From Alphaproteobacteria bacterium (GTDB taxonomy: Bacteria > Pseudomonadota > Alphaproteobacteria > RF32 > CAG-239): a stretch of 64,000 bases of DNA. The position numbers and the translations under genes were made by a program. Below, piece by piece: positions 13,262 through 18,072 of this stretch. The DNA lies in NCBI GenBank assembly GCA_015062305.1, contig SUUX01000005.1:22572-86571 (forward strand). The letters run 5' to 3'. The notes under the pieces are model-generated. The model saw only the letters and a list, made by a program, of their open reading frames with translations. It ran no database searches and was not told the DNA's origin. How positions within the stretch are numbered: position 1 is the stretch's first letter; each line of letters starts with the position of its first letter.

Positions 13262-13395
13262 AGTTTTTAAATCTTTTAAAATAATAAAGCTTGTTATGTG
13301 ACAAAAAGATGACAAAAACAACTTTACAAGTGTTGTTTTTTGTGATACAAAGGGGCAACAGAGTAATTATTTATAAACAATTAAATAAAGAGAAT

Positions 13396-13989
13396 ATGAA
13401 AAGAGAAAATGGCAGTATTGCGCATGTTCGTGCAGCAAATTCGAATTTTGCTCCTTATGTGAAGGCCGGAGCAGCAGATCGAAAAAACATTGTCGATATT
13501 GTTGCTAATAATGATGGCGACGATATTGTAATGTGTTTGAATCTCGGAGGGTTTGTTGAGGCTATCCGTCAAGGGATAATCAAGGAGTGCAAGCCTTTTG
13601 ATGAAAAAACAGCGGATTTATGTTCTCACATGGGGCATTTGACCGTAGATGGCATGACATTGCTGGAAATGGTGAAGATTGCATCTAAGATGGTCGGATA
13701 TCTAGAAGACAAGAGCTTTGGTTTGCTTCTTTGGGGTGCATGGGCTACATTGGTTTTTGAGAGAAACGGCGAAACAATTTCTTTATCTAGCTTAAATTTT
13801 GATGACATTTTGCTTTTTGATTGCGGAACATTCCGTTTTGAGCAGAATGCAACAGGAGAAACTATCTTGTTTGTAAAAATTGGGGAAAGAGAAGAAATTC
13901 GTTGGTGTGGAAGATATCCTGATGCGGTTTTGGCCGACGTTATTATTAGTCAGAACCCTGCCTTTGCGATATTTGTCGCAAACCAGTAG
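13396..13989 (+). CDS. uncharacterised protein (about 198 aa)
   Basis: Open frame from ATG at 13396 (MKRENGSIAHVRAANSNFAPYVKAG) to a stop, then a terminator; no family recognised. Confidence 0.6.
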   Translation: MKRENGSIAHVRAANSNFAPYVKAGAADRKNIVDIVANNDGDDIVMCLNLGGFVEAIRQGIIKECKPFDEKTADLCSHMGHLTVDGMTLLEMVKIASKMVGYLEDKSFGLLLWGAWATLVFERNGETISLSSLNFDDILLFDCGTFRFEQNATGETILFVKIGEREEIRWCGRYPDAVLADVIISQNPAFAIFVANQ

Positions 13990-14131: not shown

Positions 14132-14875
14132 ATGGATAATACTAATTATATAGCTTTATCTAGGCAAATGGCTTTATGGAAGCAGATGGATGTGCTTTCT
14201 AATAATATGGCCAATATGAATACTTCTGGTTTTAAGCAAGATGAAGCCTTGTTTACTTCTTATTTAGTACAGACACCTGAGGCAGAGGGAATTGGAAGTA
14301 CTCCGTTGTATTTTACTGAAGATTTTGGAACATTTCAGAATTTTGCAGAAGGTGCAATTGTTGAAACAGGTAATGTTTTTGATTTGGCAATCAAAGGTGA
14401 TGCTTTTTTCTGTTTGGAAACAAAAGCCGGTGAGATGTATACCAGAAAGGGGCAGTTTTCTCTTAACTCTGATGGAATGTTGGTGAGTAATGAGGGGGAT
14501 ATTGTTTTATCTGAGAATAATGAACCTTTGATTTTTGCTCCCGGAGAAACAGAAATTACTATTTCTGAGAGTGGGGACGTAATGACCGAAAACGGATTAA
14601 TCGGTCGTTTGAAGCTGGTTAGTTTTGAAGATAATCAGAAGTTGCTTAAGGTTGCCGGTACAATGTTTGAAAACGTGGACGGCAATAATATGCAAGTGGG
14701 CAATAATAATGCAATTGTTGCTCAAGGTGCAGTTGAAAAGTCTAATGTAAATGCGATTGAAGAGATGACAAGATTGATTAAAGTTCAACGCAGTTATGAA
14801 TATGTTCAACAAATGATAGATCAAGAGCATGATCGTCTATCAAACACAATTTCAACCTATGCCCAGTTGGCATAA
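14132..14875 (+). CDS. flgF: flagellar basal-body rod protein FlgF
   Basis: N-terminal MALWKQMDVLSNNMANMNTSGFKQDE; rod-family C-terminus; precedes flgG. Confidence 0.92.
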   Translation: MDNTNYIALSRQMALWKQMDVLSNNMANMNTSGFKQDEALFTSYLVQTPEAEGIGSTPLYFTEDFGTFQNFAEGAIVETGNVFDLAIKGDAFFCLETKAGEMYTRKGQFSLNSDGMLVSNEGDIVLSENNEPLIFAPGETEITISESGDVMTENGLIGRLKLVSFEDNQKLLKVAGTMFENVDGNNMQVGNNNAIVAQGAVEKSNVNAIEEMTRLIKVQRSYEYVQQMIDQEHDRLSNTISTYAQLA

Positions 14876-14897: not shown

Positions 14898-15686
14898 ATG
14901 AGATCTTTACATATTGGGGCAACCGGAATGTTAGCACAACAAACAAATGTTGATGTGATTTCCAACAATATTGCTAATATGAACACAACAGCTTATACAA
15001 AACGTAGAGCCGAGTTTAATGATTTGTTGTATCAGAATATTATTCGTCCTGGATCTGCTTCTAGTGCTGATAATACAATTGTACCATCTGGTATTCAGCT
15101 TGGTTTGGGTGTTAAAACTGCGGCTGTGTATAGGATTACAGATGGTGGCAGTTTGACCAATACGGGAAATGACTTGGACTTGGCTATTAAGGGAAGAGGC
15201 TATTTTCAAGTTGAGTTGCCAGAAGGTAAAGGTATTGCTTATACAAGAGATGGTGCTTTTCAGCGTAATGGTGATGGCGTGATTGTGACGCATGACGGAT
15301 ATGTTGTGCAACCAGAAATTACAATTCCGGAAGATGCGACCGAAGTTTTTGTTAATAGCTCAGGTGAAGTATGGGTTAAGCAAGATGGTGAAACAGATGA
15401 AATAAATGTTGGTCAGCTGGAATTGGCTACTTTTGTGAATGAAGCTGGACTTGAAGCAATGGGTAATAATCTGTTTTTAGAAACTCAGGCTTCTGGTGCT
15501 CCGGTGTTGGATAATCCTGATAGTGAAGGTTTTGGTGCTGTGTTGCAAGGATATTTGGCAACATCAAATGTTAATCCGGTGACGGAAATAACAGAGTTGG
15601 TTTCTGCTCAGAGAGCTTATGAAATGAACTCTAAAATTATTTCTACTTCTGATCAAATGCTTAATACTATTAATCAGTTGAAGTAA
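14898..15686 (+). CDS. flgG: flagellar basal-body rod protein FlgG
   Basis: MRSLHIGATGMLAQQTNVDVISNNIANMNTTAYTKRRAEFNDLLYQ; C-terminal NVNPVTEITELVSAQRAYEMNSK. Confidence 0.96.
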   Translation: MRSLHIGATGMLAQQTNVDVISNNIANMNTTAYTKRRAEFNDLLYQNIIRPGSASSADNTIVPSGIQLGLGVKTAAVYRITDGGSLTNTGNDLDLAIKGRGYFQVELPEGKGIAYTRDGAFQRNGDGVIVTHDGYVVQPEITIPEDATEVFVNSSGEVWVKQDGETDEINVGQLELATFVNEAGLEAMGNNLFLETQASGAPVLDNPDSEGFGAVLQGYLATSNVNPVTEITELVSAQRAYEMNSKIISTSDQMLNTINQLK

Positions 15687-16396
15687 TGAAGATGGGTAAG
15701 TTGCTGAAAATATTGGCTGTTTTGTTGTTGGTGGCAGATGTTGCTAGAGCAGGGGTGACTTTGCGTGATGTGGATTTTGTCACAGCGCTACAAAAGGAAT
15801 TTGTAGAACAAGGCCGAGATGAAAATGTTGAATTGGAGTTTTTTGGAGGTCAAACATCTTATATGTTTGACGATGCACAAAAAGCGAAGATTTTAATCTC
15901 TGGTTTGGATATTGATGATGAGCAGGGCAGATTTTTGGCAAAGGCGGAAATTTTTGCCGATGGTAAATTGGTGGAAACAACGAGTTTGAGTGGACGCTTC
16001 TTTGTGTTGGGCGATGTTTTTGTACCGGCAGTGGAGATATCTAAAGGAGAATTGATTTCTGAAGATAAGCTGGAATTGGCAAGCGTGCGTTTGAATCGTT
16101 TGAAAGAAGATGTTGTGGTTGAAAAAGAAAAACTTGTTGGTATGCAGGCAAGAAAAACTTTGAAAGCCGGAAAAATTATTAATGATAGAGAAATCGGCCC
16201 TTATATAATAATAAAAAAAGGAGCTTTGGTTACCTCTATGTATAAGTCTAAGGGATTGTTGATTACGGCTCAGGCGGTTGCTTTGAGTGATGGAGCAAAA
16301 GGACAAACCATAGAATTGGAAAATACAAAAAGCAAGAAGCGTTTTTGGGCAAAAGTTGTTGATGCTGAAACAGTAGAAATTGTAGTAGAAGAATAA
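15686..16396 (+). CDS. flgA: flagellar basal body P-ring formation protein FlgA
   Basis: SAF-like C-terminus with LVGMQARKTLKAGKIINDREIG; position between flgG and flgH. Confidence 0.9.
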   Translation: MKMGKLLKILAVLLLVADVARAGVTLRDVDFVTALQKEFVEQGRDENVELEFFGGQTSYMFDDAQKAKILISGLDIDDEQGRFLAKAEIFADGKLVETTSLSGRFFVLGDVFVPAVEISKGELISEDKLELASVRLNRLKEDVVVEKEKLVGMQARKTLKAGKIINDREIGPYIIIKKGALVTSMYKSKGLLITAQAVALSDGAKGQTIELENTKSKKRFWAKVVDAETVEIVVEE

Positions 16397-16404
16397 AAGG
16401 CGGA

Positions 16405-17175
16405 GTGATGAAAATGTTAAGCATAAATAAAACAGTCAGACAAAGTGTTGTGGCATTAATGTTGGCAACATCGTTGTCCGGATGCGGAATGCTTTCTCGT
16501 TTGAGCAGAGTTGGACAAGAGCCGCCACTAACACCAATTACAAATCCGGTAGAAGCCAGAGGATATGAACCGGTTTCTATGCCGATGCCTCATACAGAGG
16601 AAGCTACTTCTGCAGCAAACTCTTTATGGAAGCGAGGCTCTAGCGGATTCTTTAAGGATCAGAGAGCTTCTAAGGTGGGGGATATTATTACGGTAAAAGT
16701 TTCTGCTAAAGATACGGCATTGATGGAAAATGAAATGGAGCAGAACAGAGATGATAACAGTGATTCTTTGGGGATAGGCTCGTTCTTTGGATATGAAAGT
16801 TATTTGGACAAGATTTTGCCGGGTGCCGCAGATAAGGATAATTTGGTTGATATTAATTCGAATCGGGAAATATCTGGTGACGGCAAAATTGATAGAAAAG
16901 AAAAAATAGATATGACAATGGCTGCTATCGTAACTCAAGTGTTGCCAAATGGTAATTTGGTGATTGAAGGAACTCAAGAAATTAGAGTCAGTTATGAAGT
17001 GCGCCAGTTGACAGTTCGAGGTGTGATAAGAAGAGCAGATATAACTTCGGATAACACAATAGAATCCAGCAAAATTGCAGAATTGAGAGTTTCTTATGGC
17101 GGAGAGGGTGTGATATCTGATGTTCAGCAACCTCGCTATGGAAGGCAGATATTGGATATTGTTGCTCCGTTCTAG
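16405..17175 (+). CDS. flgH: flagellar L-ring lipoprotein FlgH
   Basis: Lipobox LSGCGML; DQRASKVGDIITVKV; NLVIEGTQEIRVSYEVRQLTVRGVIR. Confidence 0.95.
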   Translation: MMKMLSINKTVRQSVVALMLATSLSGCGMLSRLSRVGQEPPLTPITNPVEARGYEPVSMPMPHTEEATSAANSLWKRGSSGFFKDQRASKVGDIITVKVSAKDTALMENEMEQNRDDNSDSLGIGSFFGYESYLDKILPGAADKDNLVDINSNREISGDGKIDRKEKIDMTMAAIVTQVLPNGNLVIEGTQEIRVSYEVRQLTVRGVIRRADITSDNTIESSKIAELRVSYGGEGVISDVQQPRYGRQILDIVAPF

Positions 17176-17209
17176 AGTAAGTTTCCCTTATTATTGTGTG
17201 TCAGATTTT

Positions 17210-17316
17210 AAGAAAAAGTCTCCCCAATTTTTTCTTAAATGTATCGGTTCCAGTATGGAACTGAATTTCCCCAATGATCTGTCCCGAGTTTTCCCCAATC
17301 TTCGGGACAGATTTTT
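17210..17316 (+). terminator. cluster of three hairpins ending in a strong terminator after flgH
   Basis: AAGAAAAA...TTTTTCTT; GTTCCA-GTA-TGGAAC; ATCTGTCCCGA...TCGGGACAGAT-TTTT (11-bp perfect). Confidence 0.8.
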
Positions 17317-17403
17317 AAGTGGATGATTTTGGTTTTGATGTTTAAATGAAAAAAATAACTGTTATATTCGTTGTGATGATAATTCTATTAAAAGGAAGCG
17401 TAA

Positions 17404-18072
17404 ATGAATAATATCGATGATCAGATTAGAGATGCTGAAGAAGAAGCAAGCTTGTTGATGGGATTCTCAAAAGCTTTGACATCTGCTTCTACATGCAATG
17501 ATAACCATGTGAAATTGATGGCTTTAGATGAGAATCTGAAGTTGTGGGTAGGAATAGAATCATCGCTGAAAAGCGCAAAGAATTTGCTTCCACAAGAAAT
17601 TAAGGAAAATTTATTGAAATTGTCTAAGTATGTTGAACGTTTGACCATATCTAAGGGTGTAGATATGAGCAAGACAGACTTTGATTGCTTGGCTAATATA
17701 AATATGCAGATTTCTGAAGGTTTGTTGGCTGTGGTCAGAAACTCTTTGGCAAAAGAAGAAGCTTTTTCTTTGCTGAAATGTGCTATTGATTTGTCTAATG
17801 CTCATGAAAGTAAAAATTCTGGCGATTTGATAAATGCTTTGGATAATAATTTGCAATTGTGGGTGTATATTAAGACTTTGGCAAAAAACAAATCTACAGC
17901 ATTGCCAGAGGAAACAAAGTCAAATTTGATTAAATTGGCTGATTATGTTTCTTCTAAGACATTAGAAGTAGGAAAGAATTTGGATAAGGTTGACAATGGA
18001 ACAATTGAAAGCTTTATCAATGCTAATTTGCAAATATCCGAAGGTTTGATTACCAGTCAGAAGATAGCTTAA
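17404..18072 (+). CDS. FlaF-like flagellar regulator with two tandem FlaF-type domains
   Basis: Internal repeat: LMALDENLKLWVGIESSLKSAKNLLPQEIKENLLKLSKYVERLTI...LANINMQISEGLLA versus LINALDNNLQLWVYIKTLAKNKSTALPEETKSNLIKLADYVSSKTL...FINANLQISEGLIT; each resembles the FlaF pattern (LW, LP-E-(I)R-N, IN-I--GL); located by flg genes. Confidence 0.7.
   Translation: MNNIDDQIRDAEEEASLLMGFSKALTSASTCNDNHVKLMALDENLKLWVGIESSLKSAKNLLPQEIKENLLKLSKYVERLTISKGVDMSKTDFDCLANINMQISEGLLAVVRNSLAKEEAFSLLKCAIDLSNAHESKNSGDLINALDNNLQLWVYIKTLAKNKSTALPEETKSNLIKLADYVSSKTLEVGKNLDKVDNGTIESFINANLQISEGLITSQKIA

Follow-up and report, generated by a model that had tools for sequence, protein, structure and literature searches.

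The window analysed here, a stretch of 64,000 nucleotides taken at its full length, carries on its + strand the flagellar genes flgF (14132..14875), flgG (14898..15686), flgA (15686..16396; ChapFlgA) and flgH (16405..17175; FlgH, 180 bits), assigned with Pfam and arranged in this order. Directly after them comes a gene at 17404..18072 (+) that starts with ATG, encodes a product of 222 aa and has a Shine-Dalgarno-like AAGGAAG, read from the sequence, on its 5' side (17392..17398, +). A sequence-only reading had placed this gene beside flgFGAH and had described its product as two similar halves, each of FlaF type, and these points hold. FlaF (PF07309) is the sole Pfam family found in the product, which it matches in two stretches with 88.7 bits (cut-off 23.6); the hmmsearch boundaries are residues 7-112 for the first domain (17422..17739, +) and residues 112-220 for the second (17737..18063, +). 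Scored singly in a genome search, both halves exceed the cut-off (50.8 bits, E 1.8e-13, and 42.7 bits, E 5.6e-11), and they align with each other over 101 aa at 39% identity (E 8e-19), so that the repeat is far beyond chance. The per-half Pfam scores and this alignment together rule out a chance likeness of the halves. We note that upstream of flgF, at 13291-13989, there is a 232-aa ORF, possibly an orphan gene, which has no match in Pfam, NCBIfam or PHROGs and was not seen in the loci of relatives.

The motif residues on which the FlaF assignment had originally been based are real: N44, W48, P63, N100 and G106 show conservation throughout the family and occur in each half, as do the residues E, N, W, P, L, N, G and L, which an alignment of canonical FlaF shows to be invariant. 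A profile-profile comparison with canonical FlaF gives a probability of 99.5 (E 2e-22), which supports the FlaF membership of both halves. The two halves are conserved to the same degree, with mean pairwise identities of 0.60 and 0.62, and each has its own set of residues that are fixed in that half only; the halves are therefore not interchangeable copies. All of the 42 canonical FlaFs checked have an N-terminal tail with an invariant Tyr, which the flgH-linked family lacks; its apparent Tyr tails (8 of 96) all lie upstream of an internal Met. By the NCBIfam equivalog model for FlaF, which has a cut-off of 91 bits, the tandem protein falls below at 83.1 bits and the canonical FlaF of the same genome scores 93.1.

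That canonical FlaF is a one-domain protein of 127 aa encoded elsewhere in the genome (1.47 Mb, 19 contigs) from which the window comes (G000:C6:27874-28209, 92 bits). The sequence-only reading had proposed a search for flbT, a single-domain flaF and flagellins outside the window, and all three are present. FlbT is encoded at C4:107918, adjoining a gene for a flagellin of 406 aa; canonical flaF and flbT are thus on different contigs here, and they are adjacent in the genome G079. There are nine Flagellin_N matches in the window's genome and up to 27 in relatives; the relative with 27, G035, has a genome of 1.6 Mb. Five large flagellin genes (635-693 aa; L299:1069-3135, L300:1094-3157, L301:288-2366, L302:844-2748 and L303:683-2752, all in the same genome and outside the window) have near-identical N-termini and are dispersed singly among unrelated neighbourhoods, and a flagellin of 347 aa is found in addition to that of 406 aa.

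How the tandem protein relates to canonical FlaF is addressed by a tree of single domains (71 rows, 29 of them canonical FlaF, and 107 columns). The 29 canonical sequences form one clade (support 100/99) that excludes every flgH-linked domain. Among the two-domain proteins, the first domains are monophyletic (100/99), as are the second domains (90/84), and the repeat is therefore older than the radiation of the family. The first domain of a three-domain protein from a sister family (G077) groups with the first domains (98/87). An alignment of 107 columns is too short for the tree to resolve many of its deeper forks, or the order in which one-, two- and three-domain forms were gained and lost. 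On these sequence comparisons the tandem FlaF is a distinct paralogous FlaF clade, not the canonical FlaF of its genome. The earlier description of the gene as a fused FlaF is thus right in that two FlaF domains lie in one protein; the tree, and the existence of canonical flaF as a gene of its own, rule out a fusion of canonical flaF itself.

FlaF-type domains occur in 77 of the 153 genomes of the order, nearly all of which have three matches, one canonical and two in one frame; genera of the family without FlaF have no flagellin match either, among the matches listed. The two-domain form is fixed in the window's family, where nearly all flagellated members keep it, and at the flgH-linked place it is found in this family only. 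The search of related genomes for the same form, also proposed at the outset, recovered the two-domain gene in dozens of independent genomes, which rules out an artefact of assembly or gene calling. In 68 of 71 public two-domain loci, from named gut MAGs, the gene is directly preceded by flgH in the same orientation; the named relatives, Azospirillum sp. CAG:239 among them, are uncultured alphaproteobacteria of the gut, which we take to belong to GTDB order RF32, family CAG-239. Outside the family, the gene behind flgH encodes one domain (G079, G149, G436 and G265) or three (G145, G108 and G077). The architecture had been called unusual, and no paper on the tandem FlaF paralogue was found in the literature searched; it is, however, no one-off, given its fixation in the family and the one- and three-domain forms elsewhere.

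The gene is not common behind flgH across the alphaproteobacteria, a possibility ruled out by the loci of other lineages: the + strand loci examined have no FlaF after flgH, and in several of them a dksA-like gene runs in the opposite direction; no ORF in 30 flgH loci of other lineages matched FlaF in an HMM scan. In G098 a three-domain paralogue (L084:10621-11607) lies away from flgH, adjoining YqeY-like and dnaG genes, and that of G229 (L251:3061-4062) is on a short contig that has no flgH. The three-domain paralogue of G108 (L085:1404-2651) has an extra Lys-rich N-terminal extension with CTCGCHLG, and its start codon is uncertain. An informal look revealed no evident link between repeat number and the length or number of flagellins.

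Folding of the 228-bp gap between flgH and the tandem FlaF gene gives three hairpins (z -3.9), and the fold score, covariation and a covariance model define within it a conserved structured RNA with UCUCCCC/UUCCCC loops (17190..17320, +). In an alignment of 16 relatives the first hairpin, which has a UCUCCCCA loop, is near-invariant, and hairpin 3 shows compensatory changes (18 double-change cells, against 0 of 500 shuffles); the last hairpin is terminator-like with a U-run. The covariance model finds a single copy in the window's genome, one copy each in 55 of 134 genomes of the order and a match in 61 of the 71 loci of public relatives, with E-values that are rough and hits that include part of the model's training set. 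At the listed places the RNA lies directly upstream of the tandem FlaF gene when both share a contig, and no copy of it turned up in the lineages with one or three domains. A known RNA family is ruled out, with no Rfam match at the gathering score and matches at chance level only, and the literature searched yielded no paper on this RNA. Between the RNA and the tandem FlaF gene lies a promoter-like TTTAAA-16-TATATT with TG before the second hexamer (17341..17368, +), a consensus match only, found once against 0.18 expected and with similar bases in many relatives.

The gap RNA could be a small RNA, a leader or a terminator of elaborate form; probably it is either a C-rich-loop small RNA, or else a leader or 3'-end element by which this locus is tuned. 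Alphaproteobacteria have small RNAs with C-rich loops of the CCUCCUCCC-loop type. The gap RNA is like these in its exposed C-rich hairpin loops and terminator-like end, and unlike them in being single copy, in lacking an Rfam match, in its loops UCUCCCC/UUCCCC and in occurring only behind flgH in the window's family. A genome search for the loop complement WTTGGGGAG gave 32 matches, against 19 for the reversed pattern. Two of them lie at Shine-Dalgarno positions, one at an 82-aa ORF and one at a murB-like ORF in the window; none of the 30 matches examined is at a flagellin, and we claim no target.

An AlphaFold2 model of the tandem protein, built from an alignment (A3) of 44 sequences, has a mean pLDDT of 85.6 and contains helices at residues 2-29, 34-55, 64-87, 90-136, 139-161, 169-191 and 198-221. 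The protein is thus predicted to consist of two four-helix bundles that share one long, continuous helix (residues 90-136; 17671..17811, +), with a mutual arrangement of the halves that is uncertain because pTM is 0.59. Foldseek against the PDB returned half-length matches to FliS of Bacillus subtilis and Helicobacter pylori (chains of 3k1i and 3iqc for the latter) with TM 0.59-0.73 by target length and probability 0.99-1.00, but with E 0.25-0.72. Among these is 6gow_E, from the B. subtilis FliS-flagellin complex (TM 0.73 by target length, rmsd 2.7). The resemblance of each modelled half to FliS, a flagellin chaperone, is suggestive only: it may be no more than a shared simple fold, because the E-values are not significant and designed four-helix bundles match the halves at similar TM. 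PDB sequence searches found no FliS for the tandem protein.

In Caulobacter, FlaF is a flagellin secretion chaperone that binds all six flagellins (PMC7591256). The simplest reading of the tandem FlaF, on its descent and modelled fold, is that it would act as a bivalent, FliS-like chaperone in the export of filament-type subunits, a proposal that we hold to have an even chance of being right. A second, specialised FlaF would have split early from canonical FlaF and settled behind flgH, after which its domain would have been repeated in place. Each FliS-like bundle would bind a flagellin-type subunit by a helical segment at its terminus and retain it in the cytoplasm until it is exported, and one molecule would thereby offer two binding sites, kept in a fixed relation by the continuous helix. 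The halves would probably bind another set of subunits than canonical FlaF does, or a second partner, because canonical FlaF is retained alongside, the Tyr tail is absent, and the halves have diverged with fixed residues of their own.

Some of the same observations suit the main rival to an export chaperone, namely that flagellin, or FlbT, would be bound by the FlaF-like domains but not passed on to the export gate; as a regulatory sink, the protein would then tie flagellin synthesis to the completed basal body. The missing tail and the canonical FlaF kept in parallel both fit such a regulator, as do the position of the gene with rod and ring genes and not with flagellins, and the candidate regulatory RNA that adjoins it. 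Moreover, Caulobacter couples flagellin translation to secretion through FlbT, FljJ and FlaF, with FlbT-FljJ repressing flagellin translation until FljJ is secreted (PMC7591256). The tandem gene nevertheless does not sit with FlbT or with a flagellin gene, and we consider a regulatory sink possible but rather unlikely.

Hook-junction proteins are another conceivable set of clients: encoded among hook-basal-body genes, and with a putative FliS-like bundle that could bind such subunits, the tandem protein might serve FlgK and FlgL in place of FlgN, the usual chaperone of hook-associated proteins. A FlgN-like gene is, however, present on the contig of canonical flaF (a weak match at 30.1 bits, and 32.9 with neighbouring stretches; cut-off 30.5), as well as above the cut-off in G042 and weakly in several other family members, which makes this role improbable. 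Finally, paralogues often start as redundant duplicates, but a drifting FlaF duplicate with no distinct role is hard to credit for a gene that nearly every flagellated member of the family keeps, in a stable place and with halves of 60-62% mean identity.

A second, positionally fixed FlaF paralogue with one to three tandem domains provides a natural series for the study of valency in a flagellar chaperone, and this in a family rich in flagellin genes. The gap RNA, for its part, is a compact and testable candidate regulator in uncultured gut bacteria. We would go further only as speculation, and with little confidence, in suggesting that a second alphaproteobacterial family of flagellar chaperones, built of one to three FliS-like repeats that arose in place, forms together with an adjacent small RNA, not described before, a checkpoint that couples completion of the ring or hook to the synthesis or export of particular flagellins.

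Compared with FliS, the flagellin export chaperone of other bacteria, the tandem protein is alike in that each half is a predicted four-helix bundle of ~105 residues; it differs in having no detectable sequence similarity to FliS and two bundles per chain, and in that flagellin binding is only proposed. FlaF is generally described as a single-domain factor. Unlike canonical FlaF (about 110-130 aa), the tandem protein has two domains in 222 aa, forms a separate clade, lacks the N-terminal Tyr tail and is encoded behind flgH, not with flbT or a flagellin gene. Like the canonical FlaF of alphaproteobacteria such as Caulobacter, it belongs to PF07309, shares the same N, W, P, N and G-L core, and co-occurs with FlbT and flagellins.
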